From: Bacteroidales bacterium
GTDB lineage: Bacteria > Bacteroidota > Bacteroidia > Bacteroidales > WCHB1-69
Assembly: GCA_031272025.1 (NCBI GenBank)
Contig: JAISUP010000094.1
Span: 1 to 32,062 of the forward strand
Direction: 5' to 3'
Length of the DNA: 32,062 nt
A program made the translations under genes and the position numbers. Positions within the stretch are counted from its first letter, which is position 1; each line of letters opens with the position of its first letter. Below, piece by piece: positions 15,649 through 31,801 of this stretch. The notes beneath the pieces are model-generated. The model ran no database searches. It saw only the letters and a list, made by a program, of their open reading frames with translations, and was not told where the DNA came from.

Positions 15649-16908
15649 ATGACAAAAAACATTGTTTCTTTGAAAAATACATCTCTCCCCATCGAAATTC
15701 AAAACCAATTTATTTCATTGGAATTGAAAGAAAAAGTCCGTTTTTTGAGCAACTATTACTTCGAACAGGTTGTTCAATATCGGAGGCATATTCATCGTTA
15801 TCCCGATTTATCGGGACAGGAAGGGGCTACGGCATCTTTTGTGTGTCGGTGTTTACAAGATATGGGGTTGTCGGTTCAATATCCTGTGGCAGGACATGGG
15901 GTTGTAGCCTGCATAACCGGATTTTTACCCGGGAGACGATGCGTGGCTTTGCGAGCAGATATGGATGCGTTACCTTTGCAAGAACATACCGGTACCGACT
16001 ATGCCTCTTGTCGCCCCGGTATTATGCACGCCTGCGGGCACGATGCACATACCGCCATGCTCATAGGCTCCCTGCTTATTCTTAATACTTTGAAAAACAG
16101 TTTTGGGGGAACGATAAAGGCTATTTTTCAGCCTTCCGAAGAAGAATACGGGGGAGGGGCACCGGAAATGATCGAAGCAGGGATATTGCACAACCCTGAA
16201 GTAGATGTTATTTTTGGGCAGCACGTTACCCCCGGACTCTCCTCTAATTGTGTTGGATTTAGAGAGGGTGCTTTTATGGCTTCTACCGACGAAATTCATT
16301 TGACTATACACGGCAAAGGCGGTCACGCGGCATTGCCCGCCGAGACAATCAATCCCGTGCCCGCGGGGGTGGCTATAGTGCAAGGAATTCAAGATTTCGT
16401 GCAGACACACGCCCCAAAAGATACCCCTACCGTGCAAAATTTCGGCAAATTCATAGCAAACGGTCGGGCAAACCTTATTCCCGATACCGCCGAATTATCC
16501 GGCACTCTGAGAACCTTTGATGAAATATGGCGGGAAAAAGTATTGAACTATATCAACGCTTTCGCGCAAGAAACTGCTCGAAAAATGGGGTGTATTTGCG
16601 AGGTAGACATTCGTCGCGGCTACCCTGTTTTGTATAATTCACCCGAAGTTACCTCCCGGGCAAAAAAAGAAGCCGAAACGTATCTGGGGAAACACAACGT
16701 AACCGCGTTGCCCACACGCATGACCGCCGAAGATTTTGCCTATTTTTTGCAGGAAAAACAAGGAGTATTTTGGCGGTTAGGTAGCACGGGAGACAACAAA
16801 AACACTACTTTCCCTTTACACAATTCCCAATTCGATATTGATGAAAACGCGCTCAAAACCGGTATGGGTTTAATGGCATGGATTGCTTTGGCAGAATTGT
16901 GCAGGTAG
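15649..16908 (+). CDS. M20 family metallo-amidohydrolase (N-acyl-amino-acid / IAA-amino-acid hydrolase type)
   Basis: 419 residues from the ATG at 15649. The hydrolase fold and metal ligands of the M20D group are clear: RRHIHRYPDLSGQE (45-58), RADMDALPL (102-110), MHACGHDAH (126-134, Cys129 and His131), QPSEEEYGGG (161-170, catalytic and metal Glu), the GQHVTPGL His192, the dimerisation-domain GKGGHAALP, and late RMTAEDFAYFLQ. The family cleaves N-acyl groups (acetyl, hippuryl, auxin-like conjugates) from amino acids in the cytoplasm; no signal peptide is seen. The ~25 residues before the conserved part are longer than usual, so a later start is possible. It is followed 62 bp later by hutH, fitting an amino-acid catabolic pair. 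The exact substrate is unknown. Confidence 0.92.
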   Translation: MTKNIVSLKNTSLPIEIQNQFISLELKEKVRFLSNYYFEQVVQYRRHIHRYPDLSGQEGATASFVCRCLQDMGLSVQYPVAGHGVVACITGFLPGRRCVALRADMDALPLQEHTGTDYASCRPGIMHACGHDAHTAMLIGSLLILNTLKNSFGGTIKAIFQPSEEEYGGGAPEMIEAGILHNPEVDVIFGQHVTPGLSSNCVGFREGAFMASTDEIHLTIHGKGGHAALPAETINPVPAGVAIVQGIQDFVQTHAPKDTPTVQNFGKFIANGRANLIPDTAELSGTLRTFDEIWREKVLNYINAFAQETARKMGCICEVDIRRGYPVLYNSPEVTSRAKKEAETYLGKHNVTALPTRMTAEDFAYFLQEKQGVFWRLGSTGDNKNTTFPLHNSQFDIDENALKTGMGLMAWIALAELCR

Positions 16909-16932
16909 TTTACCTCATTGAAAAAAAAATCG

Positions 16933-16940
16933 TATTTTCG
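16933..16940 (+). promoter_or_regulatory. Possible -7 element (TATTTTCG) for hutH
   Basis: A one-mismatch fit to TAnnTTTG in the 62-bp gap before hutH, 30 bp upstream of its ATG. hutH could also be read through from the M20 gene. Confidence 0.35.
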
Positions 16941-16970
16941 CGACTGATAATAAATAAAAAATCGTATCAA

Positions 16971-18473
16971 ATGGAACATAGCATTAGTTTAGATTGGTTA
17001 ACTATTGAATTTGCCAATAAAATCATATATCCTAATAGTAAGTTATCGTGTTCTCCGGAAGTAGAGAACGCCGTTAAAACTTGTCGCGCGTATTTAGACA
17101 AAAAGGTAGCCGAGGACAAAACTCCGGTATATGGCATCACAACAGGTTTTGGTTCCCTTTGTAACCAAAATATTCCCGCGGACGATCTATCAACTTTGCA
17201 GCGCAACTTGGTGATTTCTCATGCTTGTGGGTTCGGGGACGAGGTGCCGGAAGATATAGTGAAAACCATGCTCTTATTAAAAATAAAGTCGCTTTCTTAT
17301 GGACATTCAGGGGTACAGTGGGAAACGATACAACGATTGGTACAATTTTTCAATCATGGGATTACACCGGTAATTTATACACAAGGTTCTTTGGGAGCAT
17401 CGGGAGATTTAGCCCCCTTAGCCCACTTGTCGTTACCTTTGTTGGGACTGGGCAAAGTTCGTTGGCAAGGTAACCGTTACGAATCACGCGAAATTAACGA
17501 AAAATTTGGGTGGGAACCACTTGAATTACAGTCAAAAGAAGGACTTGCCTTGCTCAATGGCACCCAATTCATGGGGGCTTATGGCGTGTGGTGTTGCGGA
17601 CAAGCACTCAGGCTCTTCTATTGGGCTAATATTATCTCCGCCATTTCATTAGACGCTTTCGATGGGTTGATAGCCCCGTTTCACCCCTTAATTTATAAAG
17701 TGAGAGGTCATAAAGGACAACAAGTTGTTGCCGACCTTTTCAATAAACTTTTACAGGGTTCAGGATTATGTCATCGAGCAAAGGCACACGTGCAAGATCC
17801 CTATTCTTTCCGGTGTATCCCACAAGTGCATGGGGCTATTTATGACACGATTTCTCACGCGCGAAAGGTCATAGAGCAAGAAATCAATTCGGTAACCGAT
17901 AATCCTACTATTTTCCCGGAAGAGGACTTGATCTTGTCGGCAGGCAATTTTCATGGAGAGCCGTTAGCATTAGTCATGGATTTCCTCGCGATGGCGGTGT
18001 CGGAATTAGGCAATATTTCCGAAAGACGAATCTATCAACTCATTTCCGGCAAACGCGGGTTGCCTCCCTTTTTAGTACAAAACCCCGGTCTTAATTCCGG
18101 TTTCATGATACCGCAATACACCGCAGCCTCTATCGTGAATCAAAACAAACTGCTCGCGAATCCTTGTTGTACAGATTCGATAGAATCATCGCAAGGACAA
18201 GAAGACCACGTGAGCATGGGTGCTAATTCCGCGACCAAACTATACACTATCGTCAAAAACACAGAAAAAATCCTTTCCATAGAACTGCTTAATGCCGCGC
18301 AAGCCATCGATTTTCGCCGTCCCTTACGTACCTCTCCTTATATAGAAAACCTTTTGGAGACTTACCGTGCCCACGTGCCCTTTGTAGAGAACGACGTTGA
18401 GATGCACGAACTTATGCGCACCTCACAACATTTTATACATCTATATGATAATAAAGAAGGTATTGAAAAATAA
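16971..18473 (+). CDS. hutH: Histidine ammonia-lyase
   Basis: 500 residues from the ATG at 16971; 31 further upstream in-frame codons are not family-like. It converts L-histidine to urocanate plus ammonia using the autocatalytic MIO cofactor. The MIO triad Ala-Ser-Gly is at 143-145 within GSLGASGDLAPLAHLS. YGITTGFGSL (54-63) carries the active-site Tyr, and NLVISHACG has the His84 typical of histidine rather than phenylalanine/tyrosine lyases. Other family blocks are LLNGTQFM, KAHVQDPYSFRCIPQVHGA, NSVTDNPTIFPE, GNFHGEPLAL, NPGLNSGFMIPQYTAASI and GQEDHVSMGAN. hutU, hutI and ftcD are not nearby. An arginase-fold protein of the kind often labelled formimidoylglutamase lies 1.6 kb away on the other strand. 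Confidence 0.95.
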   Translation: MEHSISLDWLTIEFANKIIYPNSKLSCSPEVENAVKTCRAYLDKKVAEDKTPVYGITTGFGSLCNQNIPADDLSTLQRNLVISHACGFGDEVPEDIVKTMLLLKIKSLSYGHSGVQWETIQRLVQFFNHGITPVIYTQGSLGASGDLAPLAHLSLPLLGLGKVRWQGNRYESREINEKFGWEPLELQSKEGLALLNGTQFMGAYGVWCCGQALRLFYWANIISAISLDAFDGLIAPFHPLIYKVRGHKGQQVVADLFNKLLQGSGLCHRAKAHVQDPYSFRCIPQVHGAIYDTISHARKVIEQEINSVTDNPTIFPEEDLILSAGNFHGEPLALVMDFLAMAVSELGNISERRIYQLISGKRGLPPFLVQNPGLNSGFMIPQYTAASIVNQNKLLANPCCTDSIESSQGQEDHVSMGANSATKLYTIVKNTEKILSIELLNAAQAIDFRRPLRTSPYIENLLETYRAHVPFVENDVEMHELMRTSQHFIHLYDNKEGIEK

Positions 18474-20029: not shown

Positions 20030-21217
20030 TCAGTTATTTAATTTATGAAAAGTATGCCACCATCTTTCCGGCACGATGTCGTTACAAGCCATGTCATAGT
20101 CGGCTTGCGAGCAAGGGAGAAAATAATTGCGATTGATATCTTTCTTTTTCTTGCTGACAACGGGTACGACTACCCACCAACGACCGGTAATTTTACTGCG
20201 ATAGAATACCAGTTCGTTCGTGGTGCCGGATACTTCCATGCTATATTTAACATATTGTCCTCGGTGGGAAAAAGAAGTGTCATTTTGCCGGAATATCACG
20301 CCTTCTATGAAATGCCATAAAATTTGGGCGAGGAGTTGAGAGGTTTGATTATTGCAGTCTAATGTAGGATCAAATTCAAATAGCCCGAAAGCCGAAAGCC
20401 GGTCGCTAAGCCCGGCGTAACGGGCAATACGGCACATCTCTTCCCCGTAAAATCCGTTGGGAGAGGCATGCGGGTTACCGGGAGCATCAGGACGGCGAAT
20501 CACCGATACATCTATGGCAACCATGTCTGCATCTCGTACCACCGGCTCTGCCTCTTCCAAATTCTGTCGCATAATACCAACCCGATAATGCTCGAAAAAA
20601 AGTTTGTCCATCAACAACACGGCTTCCGGACTATTGAAATAGGTTTGGTAGCCAATATTGGCAAAATTGAGCAGGTAGTTGGGCTTTCTCGTGATAATTT
20701 TGCTCAAATAATTAGTGGCATCGATTGGTTTTTGGTCATTGCCAATGTCAAAACGCGCATCTGCCAACACGAGATTCATCATTTTACACAACTTCTCATA
20801 GGCAAGGTAACAGGGAAATACAAGATCGTTGCTACCACCAAGCACTATAGGGATCATGTCGTTTTCGATACACCACGACACGATTTCTGACAAAATAGCA
20901 TAAGTGTCTTCTAGGGTATCCCCCGTGATTAAATTTCCTAAATCAATAATTTTAATTGACTTTTTCCAAACGTAGAGGCTATAAAATTGACGACGAATCT
21001 CGTCAGGTGCCAAAGAAGATGCCCTATTTTGAAAACTACCCCGTGCTTCGGGAATTCCCATGATGACTACACGTGTATCAGATACATTTAAAGATGTTTT
21101 CCCATCATAAAAATGCACGTGATGAAGTAGTACGCTTTGCTCGTAAATCCCGTGCGCGGGAGATATCTGTAAGGTAGCAAGATCCACCGGCTTAAAAGAA
21201 GGCAAAAAGTCCATCAT
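20030..21217 (-). CDS. Arginase/formimidoylglutamase-fold protein with altered metal site
   Basis: 395 residues. The ureohydrolase fold is recognisable: RVVIMGIPEARGS near 49-61, PIVLGGSND (123-131), LADARFDIG (151-159), MVAIDVSVIRRPDAPG (232-247) and FGLFEFDPTLDCNNQTSQLLA (277-297). In active arginases and HutG the corresponding motifs are GGDHS, DAHxDxR and SxDxDxxDP, which supply the two Mn ions. Here the GGDHS His, the DAH His and the second Asp of D-x-D are replaced (GGSND, DARFD, DVS). Flavobacterial relatives annotated as formimidoylglutamase share this style as I recall. Ureohydrolase activity is therefore doubtful; a regulatory, one-metal or new activity is possible. The start may be either of two consecutive ATG codons. 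Confidence 0.8.
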   Translation of the reverse strand: MMDFLPSFKPVDLATLQISPAHGIYEQSVLLHHVHFYDGKTSLNVSDTRVVIMGIPEARGSFQNRASSLAPDEIRRQFYSLYVWKKSIKIIDLGNLITGDTLEDTYAILSEIVSWCIENDMIPIVLGGSNDLVFPCYLAYEKLCKMMNLVLADARFDIGNDQKPIDATNYLSKIITRKPNYLLNFANIGYQTYFNSPEAVLLMDKLFFEHYRVGIMRQNLEEAEPVVRDADMVAIDVSVIRRPDAPGNPHASPNGFYGEEMCRIARYAGLSDRLSAFGLFEFDPTLDCNNQTSQLLAQILWHFIEGVIFRQNDTSFSHRGQYVKYSMEVSGTTNELVFYRSKITGRWWVVVPVVSKKKKDINRNYFLPCSQADYDMACNDIVPERWWHTFHKLNN

Positions 21218-21760: not shown

Positions 21761-22588
21761 ATGGGGAATGGTGTAGAAGAAAGACATTTGGGCAAAGTCA
21801 TTGCCATCGTGAACCAAAAAGGAGGAGTTGGTAAAACGACTACCGCGGTGAACCTCGCGGCTGCATTGGGAATTTTAGAATATAAAACCCTGCTGTTAGA
21901 CGCGGACCCTCAGGCAAATGCAACCTCCGGGGTGGGGATAGACCAAGCAACGGTAGATAAAAGTATTTACGACGTTATCGCGGGACGTTGTTTTCTCGAA
22001 GATACGTTGTTACATACCGACACGCCGAATCTTGACCTCGTGCCCTCGCATATAGACCTCGTGGGTGCCGAAGTAGAAATGATAGAGTTAGACCGTCGCG
22101 AATACCGGCTCAAAGACGCTCTTTTACACGTGCGCGAAAATTACGATTTTATCGTGATAGATTGTGCTCCGTCTTTGGGACAAATCACGGTCAACGCGTT
22201 GGTAGCGGCAGACTCTGTTGTGGTACCGGTGCAATGCGAATACTTCGCGCTCGAAGGGCTTGGCAAACTGCTCAACACGATAAGATTAGTACAAGCCGGC
22301 ATGAACCCTGACCTCACGATTGAAGGAATTTTGCTTACCATGTACGACCCGCGTCTTAAATTGGCAAATGCCGTGGTAGAAGATGTGCGTTCACATTGCA
22401 AAAACTTAGTATTTAAAACGCTTATATCGAGAAATATTCGTCTAAGCGAAGCCCCAAGTTTTGGCAAACCTATTCTTTTGCACGACGTGGAATCCAAGGG
22501 GTCAATAAATCACCTTAACCTCGCGAAAGAAATCCTGGTCAAAAATGGGTTGTTACCCTCTAACGAAAATGCGGAAAAAGATGTGTAA
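21761..22588 (+). CDS. parA: ParA/Soj family chromosome-partitioning ATPase
   Basis: 275 residues. It has a deviant Walker A KGGVGKTT (20-27), LLLDADPQANATSG as the A'/switch region, FIVIDCAPSLGQ (Walker B) and VVPVQCEYFALEGLGKL. These are the signature of chromosomal Soj/ParA proteins, which oscillate on the nucleoid and segregate origins with ParB. The start is fixed by a strong Shine-Dalgarno (ggagg, 21752-21756) just before the ATG, uncommon in this phylum. parB, normally the next gene, is missing. Instead the start of atpB lies inside the last 20 bases of parA. I saw no parS-like 16-bp palindrome in the window. Confidence 0.93.
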   Translation: MGNGVEERHLGKVIAIVNQKGGVGKTTTAVNLAAALGILEYKTLLLDADPQANATSGVGIDQATVDKSIYDVIAGRCFLEDTLLHTDTPNLDLVPSHIDLVGAEVEMIELDRREYRLKDALLHVRENYDFIVIDCAPSLGQITVNALVAADSVVVPVQCEYFALEGLGKLLNTIRLVQAGMNPDLTIEGILLTMYDPRLKLANAVVEDVRSHCKNLVFKTLISRNIRLSEAPSFGKPILLHDVESKGSINHLNLAKEILVKNGLLPSNENAEKDV

Positions 22589-23768
22589 GAAAAAGATAAC
22601 GTGCCCCGCGTGGGCTTTCCCCATGATTTTAGTATTGCTGCTATTGAGCAGTTTTTCGCTGTCGGCTTCCGACAAGCCAACAGGTAAATTTGAACCCGGT
22701 TCGTTCATTATTGAACATGTGAGCGATGCCCATTCTTGGCATATTCTTACTTATAAAGAACATGATGTTTCTATTCCATTGCCGGTGATTTTGTACGATG
22801 ACGGCAAAGTGATATGTTTTTTGTCAAGCAAATTTGAGCATGGACACGCGGCATATCGTGGCTACGCGTTGGGATTTACCCGCGAAACGAAAGGAAAAAT
22901 TGTGAAATTAACAGGAAAACATGCCGGTTATAGTGGTGAGTTGCACGACAAAGAAGCCTTATCCGAAAGTGTAGACATTGAAAATATGCCTATTGATTTT
23001 TCCATCACCAAAAACGTGGTATCTTTGTTCGTGTCTATCTTTTTAATGATATGGATATTTCTTTACGTGGCAAAGCAATACAAAAATCGCCCGAACAAGG
23101 CACCTCACGGGTTACAGTCTTTTATAGAGATGATTATTGTTTTCGTGAGAGACGAGATCGCCCGCCCGTCAATTGGCGAAACACGCTATGTCAAATATTT
23201 GCCTTACCTGCTCACGTTGTTTTTCTTTATCTTGTTAAACAATCTCATGGGATTGATACCCTTTTTCCCTGGAGGGGCGAATCTTACGGGCAATTTAGCC
23301 GTTACCGGTATTCTCGCGCTCATTACTTTCATTCTCACGCTATGCTCGTCAAACAAAGGCTATTGGAAACACACGTTCAATACCCCCGGGGCACCGTGGT
23401 GGCTTAAAATACCCGTGCCTTTGCTCCCGACCATAGAGTTGGTAGGAGTACTCACCAAACCGGTAGTATTGGCAATTCGTCTTTTTGCCAACATTTTGGG
23501 TGGACATATTATCGTTATCGGGATCATTAGCCTTATTTTTATCATGGGGCAAAATGTGGCACCTGCAGCGGGATATGGTTTCTCGATAGTATCAATTTTC
23601 TTTTACTTGTTCATGGGGCTACTCGAAATGATTGTCGCTTTCGTGCAATCGTTGGTATTTACCTTGCTTTCGGCAATGTATATTGGAATGGCAAGAGAAG
23701 AATCTCATGAAGATAATCATATTGAAACAGAAGGGCATAGTGCAACATCGTTAAGTACAGAACTATAA
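22569..23768 (+). CDS. atpB: ATP synthase Fo subunit a
   Basis: 399 residues from the ATG at 22569 (another ATG at 22581). Both lie inside the 3' end of parA, which stops at 22588, suggesting translational coupling. A signal peptide (to about SLSASDKP) and a ~130-residue extracytoplasmic N-terminal extension are typical of Bacteroidetes AtpB. The core has the usual membrane helices, with the essential Arg304 in LAIRLFANILGGHI and the conserved ELVGVLTKPVVL before it. Subunit a provides the half-channels that carry protons to the c-ring in the inner membrane. It is followed by atpE after 55 bp. Confidence 0.95.
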   Translation: MRKKMCKKKITCPAWAFPMILVLLLLSSFSLSASDKPTGKFEPGSFIIEHVSDAHSWHILTYKEHDVSIPLPVILYDDGKVICFLSSKFEHGHAAYRGYALGFTRETKGKIVKLTGKHAGYSGELHDKEALSESVDIENMPIDFSITKNVVSLFVSIFLMIWIFLYVAKQYKNRPNKAPHGLQSFIEMIIVFVRDEIARPSIGETRYVKYLPYLLTLFFFILLNNLMGLIPFFPGGANLTGNLAVTGILALITFILTLCSSNKGYWKHTFNTPGAPWWLKIPVPLLPTIELVGVLTKPVVLAIRLFANILGGHIIVIGIISLIFIMGQNVAPAAGYGFSIVSIFFYLFMGLLEMIVAFVQSLVFTLLSAMYIGMAREESHEDNHIETEGHSATSLSTEL

Positions 23769-23817
23769 TTAAAAATATAATCAATAAAAATAATTAAAAA
23801 ATTAAACGTAAATCTAA

Positions 23818-24081
<264 letters not shown>

Positions 24082-24133
24082 TCCATACCCCAAATGTACA
24101 CGAACAACACGCTTGTGTATGAAGAGTGACGCG

Positions 24134-24213
24134 AAACAACCACGGGGTTTGTTTTTAATTTTTTTTCATTTTTCCCCGTGGTTGTAACGTGTTTAAAAAA
24201 ATGGTTGTTTTTT
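24134..24213 (+). promoter_or_regulatory. Two mutually exclusive hairpins between atpE and atpF
   Basis: acaaccacgggg (24136-24147) is the exact complement of ccccgtggttgt (24174-24185), a 12-bp stem with a T-rich 26-nt loop. The same left strand, aaacaacca (24134-24142), can also pair with tggttgttt (24202-24210), a 9-bp stem that ends in a run of six T like a terminator. The arrangement looks like an attenuator or an RNA-processing/stabilising element that could make more subunit c than subunit b. The folding is read by eye; the regulation is inferred. Confidence 0.5.
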
Positions 24214-24242
24214 AAGAGAATAATTATTAAAGTAAAAATATC

Positions 24243-24737
24243 ATGGAACTGATCACCCCTTCTTTCGGGTTAATATTTTGGATGTTGCTGGGTTTCGGCA
24301 TCTTGTTTTTTGTTTTGGCAAAATTCGCGTGGCCTGTTATCATTAAAATGCTTTCCGAGCGCGAAAAACATATAGAAGAACAATTGTCGGCGGCAAATTT
24401 AGTACGCGAAGACATGAGTCGTTTGCAGTCGGAACACCAAAGACTATTGGTAGAGGCAAAAGAAGAACGGGACAAAATTCTCGCCGATGCCCGCAAACTG
24501 CGCGAAAAACTCGCCGAAGAAACCAAAGCCAAAGCCAACGAGGAAGCCAACGCTATTATCGCGGAAGCCAAACAAGCTATTCATTTCGAAAAAATGAAAG
24601 CAATGGTTGAAATAAAAAACGAGATTGCCAATCTCTCTATCGAGATCGCGGAAAAAGTATTGCGACACGAACTCTCGGATAAAACACAACAAGAGACACT
24701 TGTATCGCGATGGATGCAAGAGGTAAATTTGAATTAA
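24243..24737 (+). CDS. atpF: ATP synthase Fo subunit b
   Basis: 164 residues. One N-terminal membrane helix (~8-34, PSFGLIFWMLLGFGILFFVL) is followed by a long charged coiled coil (LSEREKHIEEQLSAANLVRED... to the end), the peripheral stalk that holds F1 against subunit a. The later part, EIANLSIEIAEKVL, is the family's C-terminal signature. It is the last atp gene here: atpH, atpA, atpG, atpD and atpC do not follow, and a tRNA gene starts 66 bp later. The F1 genes must lie elsewhere in the genome. Confidence 0.95.
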   Translation: MELITPSFGLIFWMLLGFGILFFVLAKFAWPVIIKMLSEREKHIEEQLSAANLVREDMSRLQSEHQRLLVEAKEERDKILADARKLREKLAEETKAKANEEANAIIAEAKQAIHFEKMKAMVEIKNEIANLSIEIAEKVLRHELSDKTQQETLVSRWMQEVNLN

Positions 24738-24777
24738 AAAAAAACACAAGATCGCGTGCGCGAAACAAAAAAAGTTG

Positions 24778-24785
24778 TATCTTTG
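24778..24785 (+). promoter_or_regulatory. -7 element (TATCTTTG) of the tRNA gene
   Basis: A perfect TAnnTTTG, 18 bp before the tRNA. The -33 position has GTG rather than TTG. A small cacac/gtgtg inverted repeat lies between the element and the tRNA. Confidence 0.6.
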
Positions 24786-24803
24786 CACACTCATTGTGTG
24801 AGC

Positions 24804-24877
24804 GGTCCCTTAGCTCAGTTGGTTAGAGCATCTGACTCATAATCAGAGGGTCCTTGGTTCGATACCAAGAGGGACCA
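24804..24877 (+). tRNA. tRNA with CAT anticodon (Ile2 or elongator Met)
   Basis: 74 nt, full cloverleaf. Acceptor GGTCCCT pairs with AGGGACC. The D-arm is GCTC/GAGC. The anticodon stem TCTGA/TCAGA holds the loop CTCATAA, so the anticodon is CAT. The T-arm is CTTGG/CCAAG around TTCGATA. Discriminator is A; CCA is not encoded. Pairs C4-G69 and C5-G68 match those that lysidine synthase (TilS) recognises in tRNA-Ile2 of E. coli, and the acceptor resembles E. coli ileX, so tRNA-Ile2 (read as AUA after lysidine) is a serious alternative to tRNA-Met. It is not an initiator: the anticodon stem lacks the three G-C pairs. Confidence 0.95.
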
Positions 24878-24883
24878 CATGTA

Positions 24884-24920
24884 AGGTTGCCCCTAAAATC
24901 AATAAGGACAGCCTTTTTTT
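24884..24920 (+). terminator. Rho-independent terminator after the tRNA
   Basis: aggttgccc (24884-24892) pairs with ggacagcct (24906-24914), with one mismatch and one G-U pair, and leads into seven T (24914-24920). Confidence 0.65.
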
Positions 24921-24952
24921 ATATATCTATTATTCGTATACACGATTAAAAT

Positions 24953-26494
24953 ATGGGAGTCATTGTTAGACAAAGTATCAAAAGCACGTTGATAAACTAT
25001 TTGGGGTCTTTCATTGGATTTGTTACTACCTTTTTTATCATTACCCGTTATCTTACCCCGGCAGAGGTAGGTTTTGCCCGTGTGTTTTTTGATACGGCAT
25101 TCTTATTCGCGAGTTTGGCTCAGTTGGGAACAAGTGCTTCTGTTATGCGCTATTATCCGTATTTTAAAAATTCGGAAAAAAAAGACCACGGGTTTTTCTT
25201 CTGGACATTGCTCGTCCCTCTCGTGGGCTTTTTGCTGTTCCTTGTCGTTTTTTTCTTGTTTAAAGGTACTTTTATACATATTTTTTCAAAAAATGCCTCA
25301 TTGTTGGTCGACTATTACGACTACCTTGTACCCATGTCTTTTTTTCTGCTCTATATAGCAGTTTTCGAAACCAATTCTAACGTGTTGATGCGTATCGCTG
25401 TTCCCAAATTTATTAGAGAAGTGTTAGTGCGCGTACTCATGATATTGGTTTACCTGCTCTATGGGTTTAAGGTTATTTCGCTACGTCAATTCGTGATAGA
25501 CTATTGTGTCGTGTATCTCATCGCGTTAGTGTGCAATATCATTTATCAGTTTAAATTAAAAAAGGTATCTTTAAAGCCGGACATGTCAATTATCACGCCC
25601 CCTTTGCGTAAGGATTTTCTCTTTTACACCGGTTTTTTGGTAGTATCTTCCGTGAGTGGGTTAATTACCACAAGCATCAGTTCGCTTGCCGTAAGCGCGA
25701 AAATGAATCTTGACTACGCGGGGATACTCACGGTCGCGGGTTATATTGCAACTATCGTGGAAATTCCATATCGCTCGCTTTCTGCTATTGCCAGCCCCAA
25801 TATCTCTATTGCCATCAAAAATGACGACAAACAAACTGCCAATAACTTATGCCAATCTGTATCTTTGCACCAATTGTTAGCGGGTTCGCTTGTTTTTTAT
25901 GTTATATGGATCAATATTGATGTGATTTATCAAATTTTACCTAATGGCGACATCTATGCTGCCGGAAAATGGGCGGTACTCGCCATTTGTCTTTACCGAC
26001 TATTTAATTCGGTTTGTGGTATTGGACCTTCCGTGTTAGGGTATTCCCGTTATTATTACTTGACCCTTATCTTTACAATATTGCTTACTTGCTCTACTTT
26101 CGTATTTACTTTATGGTGGATTCCATATTGGGGCATCGTGGGTGCCGCTTTTGCTACTTTTGTCTCTTTTATTATTTATTACACGTCTCTTTTATGGGTA
26201 GTGAAACGAAAAATGGCAGTAACACCTTTTTCTTTTCCACAATTGAAAGTTGTGGGTCTCCTACTCGCGCTTTTCTTGCTCAACGCGGCATGGGAATATA
26301 GCCTAGCCCCCGTTTTCGCTAAATTGCCTTTGCAACCCTTTTGGTGCAATATCCTGAATAGATTGTCGTGTACATTGCTTATGCTCGTTATCGCCATCTT
26401 CGCGATTTATAAGATGAAAATATCAGAACAAGTAAACATGTTGATACGTAGAGGATTAAAAAAAACCGGTATCTCGATAGAAATCGGGAAATAA
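24953..26494 (+). CDS. Wzx/oligosaccharide flippase family polysaccharide exporter
   Basis: 513 residues, highly hydrophobic, with about 12-14 predicted membrane helices. The N-terminus (IKSTLINYLGSFIGFVTTFFI, then LTPAEVGFARVFF) is typical of the MOP-superfamily Polysacc_synt group. Members flip lipid-linked glycans (O-antigen, capsule, peptidoglycan-like) across the inner membrane. No glycosyltransferase gene is adjacent, so the glycan is unknown. It begins 32 bp after the tRNA terminator and is followed by yraN, which has its own -7 element. MurJ is an alternative but less likely given the N-terminus. Confidence 0.88.
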   Translation: MGVIVRQSIKSTLINYLGSFIGFVTTFFIITRYLTPAEVGFARVFFDTAFLFASLAQLGTSASVMRYYPYFKNSEKKDHGFFFWTLLVPLVGFLLFLVVFFLFKGTFIHIFSKNASLLVDYYDYLVPMSFFLLYIAVFETNSNVLMRIAVPKFIREVLVRVLMILVYLLYGFKVISLRQFVIDYCVVYLIALVCNIIYQFKLKKVSLKPDMSIITPPLRKDFLFYTGFLVVSSVSGLITTSISSLAVSAKMNLDYAGILTVAGYIATIVEIPYRSLSAIASPNISIAIKNDDKQTANNLCQSVSLHQLLAGSLVFYVIWINIDVIYQILPNGDIYAAGKWAVLAICLYRLFNSVCGIGPSVLGYSRYYYLTLIFTILLTCSTFVFTLWWIPYWGIVGAAFATFVSFIIYYTSLLWVVKRKMAVTPFSFPQLKVVGLLLALFLLNAAWEYSLAPVFAKLPLQPFWCNILNRLSCTLLMLVIAIFAIYKMKISEQVNMLIRRGLKKTGISIEIGK

Positions 26495-28127: not shown

Positions 28128-29399
28128 ATGTTAAGAAAAAGTGTCATTGTATTTTTAGCGATAATATGCGGGACTTTACCGGTATTTTCGCAAGTAGTTT
28201 CAGGAACAAGTAGTGATTATTTGGGCAGGCGCAACACGATAACGAGTGCTGTACCCTTTTTACTTATCGCGCCCGATTCGCGGTCAGGAGCGATGGGCGA
28301 CATCGGTGCCGCGACCTCTGCCGATGTTATGTCGCAACACCACAATCCCGCCAAATACGTTTTTAGTCAAAATAAAGCAGGCGTTTCCATTTCTTATAGC
28401 CCTTGGCTCAAAGCCTTAGTCAACGATATTCATTTGCTTTACGTGGCAGGGTACTGGAAAATTACTGATATGGATGCCATATCCATGTCCTTGCGGTATT
28501 TTTCATTGGGCAATATTGATTTTACCGACATGTACGGGAATGCTATCATGTCGCACACTCCTAACGAATTCGCGATAGACATGAATTATTCGCGCAAATT
28601 GACAGATGTCCTATCTATGGCAATTACCCCCCGGTTGATATATTCCGACCTCACGGGGCGGCAATTTGCTTCGGGGGTAGAAACCAAAGCCGGGGTTGCC
28701 GGTGCCGCCGACTTATCTTTGTTCTACGAACAAGATTTTTCCAGCAAAACCCTCCGAAACCAAACCCTGCGAATAGGATTAAATATCTCCAATATCGGGA
28801 ATAAAATGTCTTACGCGACCGGAACCATGCGTAGAGACTTCATTAGTACTAACCTGAAACTAGGGTTAGGCTATAGTATGGATTTCGATGATTATAACCG
28901 ACTTACATTCGTGGGCGAGATCAACAAATTGCTTATCCCTACCCCACCGGTATACGCGGAAGATAGCACGGGACAAACCGTTTACGACGATGCAGGGAAT
29001 CCGGTTATCGCGGCAGGAAAAGATCCAAACGTGTCGGTAGCCCAAGGAATATTCCAGTCCTTTTACGATGCCCCCGGTGGTTTTGTGGAAGAAATGAGAG
29101 AATATAATTGGGCTTTGGGGATGGAATACGTGTATAGAGACTTGCTTGCCGTGCGTTTCGGCTATTTTAACGAAAGTAAATATAAAGGCGGTAGAAAATA
29201 TTTTACCATTGGTGCAGGTGTGAAATACAATATTTTAGGTATTGACGTGTCGTATCTTTTCGCGGTGAACCAAAACCACCCATTAGAAAATACCCTGCGC
29301 TTTACCCTCACTTTCGACTTTGCCTCTTTTAAGAGTTCTGAGATTAAAAATCAGGGCAAATTATTGAAAAATAGCGGTATTAGTAACCAAATCAGGTAG
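28128..29399 (+). CDS. porV: Type IX secretion system outer-membrane shuttle PorV
   Basis: 423 residues. A signal peptide (1-21, LPVFSQ) precedes an outer-membrane barrel of the PorV/FadL-like family. The N-terminal block ITSAVPFLLIAPDSRSGAMG, followed by DIGAATSADVMSQHHNPAK, is diagnostic of PorV (LptO), as are the later VEEMREYNWALGMEYVYRD and GGRKYFTIGAGVKY blocks. PorV collects cargo leaving the Sov channel by binding its C-terminal domain and delivers it to the PorU sortase complex. porU, often next to porV, is not present. The gene ends 7 bp before ispF and is probably co-transcribed with it. Confidence 0.95.
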   Translation: MLRKSVIVFLAIICGTLPVFSQVVSGTSSDYLGRRNTITSAVPFLLIAPDSRSGAMGDIGAATSADVMSQHHNPAKYVFSQNKAGVSISYSPWLKALVNDIHLLYVAGYWKITDMDAISMSLRYFSLGNIDFTDMYGNAIMSHTPNEFAIDMNYSRKLTDVLSMAITPRLIYSDLTGRQFASGVETKAGVAGAADLSLFYEQDFSSKTLRNQTLRIGLNISNIGNKMSYATGTMRRDFISTNLKLGLGYSMDFDDYNRLTFVGEINKLLIPTPPVYAEDSTGQTVYDDAGNPVIAAGKDPNVSVAQGIFQSFYDAPGGFVEEMREYNWALGMEYVYRDLLAVRFGYFNESKYKGGRKYFTIGAGVKYNILGIDVSYLFAVNQNHPLENTLRFTLTFDFASFKSSEIKNQGKLLKNSGISNQIR

Positions 29400-31279: not shown

Positions 31280-31801
31280 ATGATTTATATGAAAACAAGT
31301 GTTTTAAAGAAATTCGGTGGGTTATCCGGAATTTGTTTTTTTCTTTTTTTGGGCACGATGCGTGGAGAAACTCCGGTCGTTATCTATCATGATAACGCGG
31401 ACACCTTGCAAATAGATTCCATATTTGTGCAAGAAAACGGAAAAATATATTTTGTCGGCAACGAGCTGTGGGTAGATGATGGGGTAAATGCCCCACATAC
31501 TTTTTTGGTTTCTAACATCCGGAAGATCATCACGGGAAATACAAAATCGCCTATGAAACTACCCGCGATAACCCAAACGTTACCGGCAAAGCCCCTACTT
31601 TATCCTAACCCTACCGAAAGGGTACTCCATTTAACCGGCACGGGCAATCTTCCGGTACAAATCACGATTTATTCTATGTTGGGACAACCTTTGCTCCGAC
31701 AAACGATATCTCCCGAAGAACCGATAGATATATCTTTCCTTTCTTCCGGTTATTATTTGCTGCAAACCCAAGGACACACGTTAAAATTCTGCAAACGATG
31801 A
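31280..31801 (+). CDS. Small T9SS sorting-domain protein
   Basis: 173 residues (ATG at 31280; a second ATG at 31289 gives a more usual signal peptide start, MKTSVLKK). The signal peptide runs to about LGTMRGE. A short middle domain (~30-95) has the pattern VVIYHDNADTLQIDSIFV ... FLVSNIRKIITGN, like the small 'L.dI.kI.F' leader domain seen on many minimal Bacteroidetes T9SS proteins. The last ~70 residues are a type A sorting domain: PLLYPNPTERVLHLTG, ITIYSMLGQPLL, DISFLSSGYYLLQTQG. Almost nothing but leader plus CTD is present, so its own activity is unclear; it is probably surface-exposed or released. It has its own promoter. Confidence 0.85.
   Translation: MIYMKTSVLKKFGGLSGICFFLFLGTMRGETPVVIYHDNADTLQIDSIFVQENGKIYFVGNELWVDDGVNAPHTFLVSNIRKIITGNTKSPMKLPAITQTLPAKPLLYPNPTERVLHLTGTGNLPVQITIYSMLGQPLLRQTISPEEPIDISFLSSGYYLLQTQGHTLKFCKR

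Follow-up and report, generated by a model that had tools for sequence, protein, structure and literature searches.

The closest described relative of the protein studied here is formimidoylglutamase (HutG; TIGR01227), for which structures from Bacillus subtilis (3m1r) and Trypanosoma cruzi (4myn and 2a0m) are available; the two share the arginase fold, and HutG is the nearest family by both sequence and structure. In 2015, Hai and colleagues reportedly described, in the words of the title, an arginase-like protein of T. brucei without the binuclear manganese cluster. It likewise represents an arginase fold that evolved without its metal cluster, but is eukaryotic. Metformin hydrolase has a metal-free subunit, MetCb (MfmB), which is an arginase-fold pseudoenzyme with at least three ligands replaced and adjoins its catalytic partner MetCa. 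According to the accessible text of PMC11271267, 3 to 5 of the 6 ligands are changed in MetCb homologues, and MetCa/MetCb pairs are reported from Proteobacteria, Actinomycetota, Acidobacteriota and Planctomycetota, a distribution that differs from the Bacteroidia-wide family described below. The last system of reference is the PorP-PorK-PorL-PorM-PorN (GldKLMN) operon of the type IX secretion motor (PMC5790014).

We analyzed an arginase-family gene in a 32,062-nt stretch of DNA from a Bacteroidales bacterium (contig JAISUP010000094.1; hereafter, the window). It differs from HutG in its apparently destroyed second metal site, its extra C-terminal module, the topA/gldKLMN neighborhood of its family and its sub-cut-off score with the HutG model. 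With three ligands changed, it falls in the range given for MetCb, which it also matches structurally; unlike MetCb, the Bacteroidia family has neither an adjacent nor an obligate partner. Genes of the family often lie directly before porP-gldKLMN or gldKLMN, although the accessible text of PMC5790014 does not describe such a gene as part of the motor operon, and the family is missing from many genomes with SprA. Taken together, the gene probably represents a pseudo-ureohydrolase kept throughout the class Bacteroidia, with a predicted non-hydrolytic, protein-binding role.

Table 1. Features of the probable pseudo-ureohydrolase gene in the window
Feature	Position	Strand	Remarks
Pseudo-ureohydrolase gene	20030..21217	-	395-aa ORF; second Met (21214) aligned with the start of most relatives
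GGSND motif, residues 127-131	20825..20839	-	N130 in place of the Mn_A histidine (H101); most relatives have Q
DARFD motif, residues 153-157	20747..20761	-	D153 and D157 retained; R155 in place of the Mn_B histidine (H126)
DVS motif, residues 236-238	20504..20512	-	D236 retained; S238 in place of the Mn_B aspartate (D234)
C-terminal module, residues 310-395	20033..20290	-	86 residues with four strands and two helices; not present in HutG or SpeB
RWW, residues 346-348	20174..20182	-	Clade hallmark
Residues 224-228	20534..20548	-	E224 and R228 clade-specific, each in 186/187 members; unconserved in HutG-like enzymes

The 395 codons of the ORF contain no internal stop. A sequence-only reading of this DNA had proposed that an arginase-fold protein lost its metal ligands at three motifs, GGSND, DARFD and DVS. 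All three motifs were present as claimed (Table 1), and the loss was real but only half complete, with three aspartates remaining. In the alignment to B. subtilis HutG, H101, H126 and D234 are replaced by N130, R155 and S238, whereas D124, D128 and D232 are retained as D153, D157 and D236, in a numbering that we take to be that of rat arginase. The set of a catalytic Mn-dependent ureohydrolase (H101, D124, H126, D128, D232 and D234) thus reads N, D, R, D, D and S. In arginase, the first metal site (Mn_A) presumably corresponds to the retained aspartates together with residue 130, and the second (Mn_B) presumably includes the replaced H126 and D234. Read in this way, the second site appears to be destroyed, and the first appears to be retained apart from its histidine.

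The protein matched the arginase family (PF00491) with 71.9 bits, well above the Pfam gathering score of 22 bits, but reached only 100 bits with the NCBIfam HutG model against a curated cut-off of 229.15 bits. The earlier suspicion of mis-annotation was borne out to the extent that the name formimidoylglutamase is unjustified. The best solved relatives by sequence were B. subtilis HutG and the agmatinase of Thermoplasma volcanium. The AlphaFold model (pLDDT 90.8, pTM 0.92) is predicted to have the arginase fold, as the first reading held, and superimposed on the T. cruzi formiminoglutamase (4myn) with a Z of 37.5 and an rmsd of 1.9 over 278 residues, and on B. subtilis HutG with a Z of 36.0. 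These structural matches indicate an intact fold with unshifted ligands. Shifted ligands were ruled out by the sequence alignment to HutG as well, the check that had been suggested against solved arginase-fold proteins.

Homologs were searched for in draws of genomes from the order, the phylum and the class. Family matches were found in 278 of the 296 Bacteroidia genomes of the class-wide draw; the 18 absences are an upper bound, as two of these genomes (G403 and G431) hold diverged homologs of 315 and 308 residues with the C-terminal module. Among Bacteroidales genomes, 44 of 59 gave matches and 43 were counted as members, leaving out G041, whose match was a canonical copy, and including G053, with a weak match, and G009, whose homolog of 372 residues carries the module. 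In the phylum draw, all of the listed matches that cover the C-terminal part belong to the class Bacteroidia, and those listed from the sister classes show the arginase part only. The group is thus conserved as the sequence-only reading supposed, but class-wide rather than phylum-wide, and its statement that flavobacterial proteins share the pattern was correct, for example, in Flagellimonas and Muricauda (loci L100 and L107).

Across the 187 clade members (effective number 114 at 70% identity), H126 and D234 were never retained together, and one of the two was retained in 13. By comparison, the 29 HutG-like rows that lack the C-terminal module, most of them from sister classes, all have both second-site ligands (L278 was dropped from the comparisons); all six ligands were present in 22 of these, Asn replaced the first histidine only in 6, and Asn replaced D128 only in 1. 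A change at the first histidine was thus also observed outside the clade, whereas loss of the second site was observed exclusively within it. Six HutG-like loci (L215, L223, L224, L228, L230 and L233), in which Asn replaces the first histidine ligand and the others are intact, may represent an intermediate state. Within the clade, 155 of the 187 members retain a set resembling the first site, with Q, N or H alongside the three Asp. Of the 178 members with the RWW module, 147 have Q at position 130, 12 have H and 9 have N. The three Asp columns were among the most conserved of the domain (8th to 17th percentile of entropy), the His-to-Gln column was moderately conserved (37th percentile) and the H126 column was among the most variable (94th percentile). 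In most members, conservation of the Asp box is too strong for a mere relic.

The C-terminal module and the genomic neighborhood are features that the earlier reading missed. The module residues F338, R346, W347, W348, C369 and Y374 were each present in 179 to 186 of the 187 members. In the arginase part, R212 was found in 183 of 187 members and is unconserved in HutG-like rows, and W301 was found in 186 of 187 members and in 9 of the 29 HutG-like rows. Where the Asp box is broken (19 members), E224, R228, W347 and C369 were each kept in 18 and W301 in all 19; the module persists even where the metal site has been erased, which suggests that the function outlasts that site. In five loci of the genera g98 and g62 (L202-L206), the metal site is wholly erased (NSISND) and LWY stands instead of RWW, and the gene is still near topA. 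Modeled alone, the module gave a pLDDT of 81 and a pTM of 0.67, and therefore a weak relative may have been missed. Searches with the module gave nothing worth naming in Pfam (best E 0.0019, in 1 of 28 members), no relative among PDB sequences at E below 0.38 and no Foldseek match in the PDB with E <= 0.001.

A tree of the group had been proposed as a check. Thinning by identity left 84 of 222 rows (53 family and 31 others) for tree building, and the careful tree omitted the ligand columns and dropped nine long rows. In it, the members with the pattern formed one clade beside the HutG-like enzymes (bootstrap/SH-aLRT 100/98), and the second-site state changed once; a quicker tree including the long rows recovered the same clade. 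These topologies show a single origin next to HutG-like enzymes, with the second metal site lost. In 25 close pairs, the median dN/dS was 0.048 (range 0.024-0.17), with 0.045 for the arginase part and 0.034 for the C-terminal part. The clade is held under strong purifying selection and is not a decayed gene. A pseudogene or a sequencing error was ruled out by this ratio and by the conservation, with the same positions replaced across relatives of many genera. A scan of the window protein against viral contigs gave no match, and carriage by phages is unsupported.

The neighborhood was examined in named loci, the 80 best-scoring of 582, which lean towards relatives of the window; three of them (L095, L097 and L112) were left out as the family ORF was missing in the neighborhood scan. 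In this sample of 77 from the best 80 of 582, topA was the adjacent upstream gene, in the same orientation, in 63 loci, with a median gap of 28 bp, and gldK was nearby in 28. A common order is miaB (on the opposite strand), topA, the pseudo-ureohydrolase gene, porP/sprF, gldK, gldL, gldM and gldN, where the names of neighbor clusters are our own reading of the sequences rather than database assignments. In the Tenacibaculum, Flagellimonas and Muricauda loci, the gene lies directly before gldK. Among the best-scoring loci of the order, phylum and class draws, whose fractions do not describe a random sample, topA preceded the gene by no more than 1.5 kb, on the same strand, in 26 of 30, 20 of 30 and 27 of 28, respectively, and gldK or porP was downstream in at least 14, 20 and 28 of 30. 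In Bacteroidales, the gene is linked to topA more widely than to gldK. None of these genes was found near HutG-like genes in 28 loci, within the 2.7-4 kb fetched, and the 13 loci of divergent members had topA in none and gldK/porP in one. In two loci from genomes scored as family-negative (L283:1468-3130 and L284:617-2231), a diverged homolog carrying the RWW module and the end of a second gene overlap; in L283, this second gene encodes a DUF4837 protein (118.9 bits), a possible partner.

The window itself departs from this arrangement. Neither topA nor gldK was found beside the gene or anywhere in the window, miaB being the sole match; the flanks are a 2-hydroxyacid dehydrogenase-like gene on one side and, on the other, a small gene and then a parA-like gene, recognized by eye. 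Elsewhere in the window (22545-26494, + strand), atpB and atpF appear to be followed at 24953 by a flippase-like gene instead of atpH/atpA (names by eye), and the ATP synthase operon looks split.

The genome of the window has both SprA and GldL. The gene for PorV, an outer-membrane protein of type IX secretion, was found in the same window (28128-29399, + strand, 476 bits), and two ORFs (711-2882 and 31280-31801) appear by eye to end in a type IX sorting domain. Of the 59 Bacteroidales genomes, 57 carry SprA, and of the 296 genomes of the class draw, 288 do. The pseudo-ureohydrolase family was missing from 14 of the 57 and 13 of the 288, respectively, with a hyper-diverged homolog in 2 of the latter 13. 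Conversely, three class genomes (G060, G542 and G401) had the family without SprA, with GldL only in G060; G060 and G542 belong to the same genus (g60) and are nearly complete, and both retain the family. Presence of the family and of SprA was associated in the class draw (275 with both, 3 with the family only, 13 with SprA only and 5 with neither; Fisher p 2e-5), but this p value is overstated, since only three families account for the five joint absences. As SprA-positive genomes without the family exist, the gene is not a universal core part of type IX secretion, and an accessory or regulatory role is preferred because genomes can lose the gene yet keep the system. The gliding lipoprotein GldD, found in 55 of 59 Bacteroidales genomes, does not track the losses of the family, and this link was rejected. 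A functional connection with type IX secretion or gliding may be plausible, and its support is positional.

A search lying mostly outside subscription journals found no published link of arginase or formimidoylglutamase to type IX secretion, gliding, gldK or topA. In the accessible literature on signature proteins and pseudoenzymes, PMC10981699 included, there was nothing on a Bacteroidia pseudo-ureohydrolase family. Among the 25 papers listed of 3,777 from a broader search, no formiminoglutamase term occurred, and one of them, PMC12635249, does not mention arginase, formimino or topA. PMC4755523, which came up for arginase and type IX secretion, mentions arginase as transposon cargo.

The first reading had left the choice between a pseudoenzyme and a different activity, and this remains the best description of the arginase-fold protein. 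The most conventional account, a working HutG of histidine degradation with unusual ligands, is very unlikely. It agrees with the closest enzyme family, with a hutH gene (histidine ammonia-lyase) at 16878-18473 (+ strand), 1.6 kb off, which scored 578.7 bits over a 539-bit cut-off, and with hutU (urocanate hydratase) on another contig of the same genome (G000); a PDB entry titled as an N114H variant of the T. cruzi formiminoglutamase fits Asn at the first histidine in that enzyme, and hutU is commoner in family-positive genomes (245/278 vs 11/18; Fisher p 0.005, kinship ignored). Set against this are the sub-cut-off HutG score, the loss of both second-site ligands and the 33 of 278 family-positive class genomes without hutU (by subtraction of listed rows). 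Moreover, three family-positive genomes (G086, G187 and G290) additionally encode a HutG-like protein with all six ligands intact; the two that were scored pass the HutG cut-off (L213 of G086, 261 bits; L212 of G187, 272 bits). A role in histidine degradation is disfavored by the score, the genomes without hutU and the co-resident copies. We consider it slightly less credible still that the protein is a pseudo-subunit that, like MetCb with MetCa, completes a catalytic ureohydrolase whose gene lies elsewhere. The top two Foldseek matches (8x3g_E and 8x3g_C) are metformin hydrolase chains, the length would fit MetCb, the number of changed ligands is similar and the genome of the window has one canonical ureohydrolase. 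That copy, however, is on another contig, no second arginase gene occurs among the ORFs of the window, and no canonical ureohydrolase was found in 15 of 43 family-positive Bacteroidales genomes, which disfavors an obligate catalytic partner.

A new single-metal enzyme, in which the first-site set would bind one Mg, Mn or Ca for a different reaction and the module would help to form the pocket, has more in its favor but is still unlikely. Besides the widely retained first-site set and the low entropy of the Asp columns, Glu281, which we take to occupy the place of arginase E277, is kept at a weighted frequency of 0.80. Several lineages, nevertheless, lost the set and kept the rest of the protein (the 19 members above), and the His-to-Gln column is only moderately conserved. 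Another account concerns the role rather than the pseudoenzyme state and overlaps with the explanation that we prefer: the position beside topA and gldKLMN may be an inherited accident and the role unrelated, for example, guanidine or polyamine sensing. We regard this as a real possibility, albeit short of an even chance. The losses track type IX secretion poorly, the topA link is the wider one in Bacteroidales and the gene persists where the neighborhood is broken, as in the window. On the other hand, adjacency to both topA and gldKLMN is held across many genera with short gaps, and it is found in the clade that lost the second site and acquired the module while being absent from the 28 HutG-like loci.

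A single-origin clade emerged beside the HutG-like enzymes, lost the second metal site and acquired the C-terminal RWW module together with the conserved charged and aromatic residues R212, E224, R228 and W301. Under the preferred reading as a non-hydrolytic, protein-binding pseudo-ureohydrolase, hydrolysis of formiminoglutamate, arginine and agmatine would have been given up, and the Asp box would be a single-metal or structural site at most. The protein would be cytoplasmic, with no signal peptide seen by eye, and might bind a partner through the RWW module and the neighboring charged helix. In the weakest step, this partner would come from the adjacent machinery, namely the type IX secretion/gliding motor (GldK-N) or else a process linked to TopA. 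The full proposal, a cytoplasmic regulator of the type IX motor, single-metal or metal-free, or a coupler of the operon and topoisomerase I, nearly class-wide, derived once from a HutG-like enzyme and acting through a module without recognized relatives, is tentative, and we hold it to be rather doubtful in this specific form.

Metal-free arginase-fold proteins as such were already known (accessible text of PMC11271267); new are the breadth of the family, its C-terminal module and its genomic setting. Named after its nearest family, the protein would pass as a histidine-degradation enzyme and be overlooked. The loss of its metal site can be traced from relatives still holding the site, and the gene offers a clear deletion target in a model gliding bacterium. 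Arginase-fold pseudoenzymes have been known from a few scattered cases, whereas here a whole bacterial class probably keeps one under strong selection, often in the operon of a rotary secretion motor.
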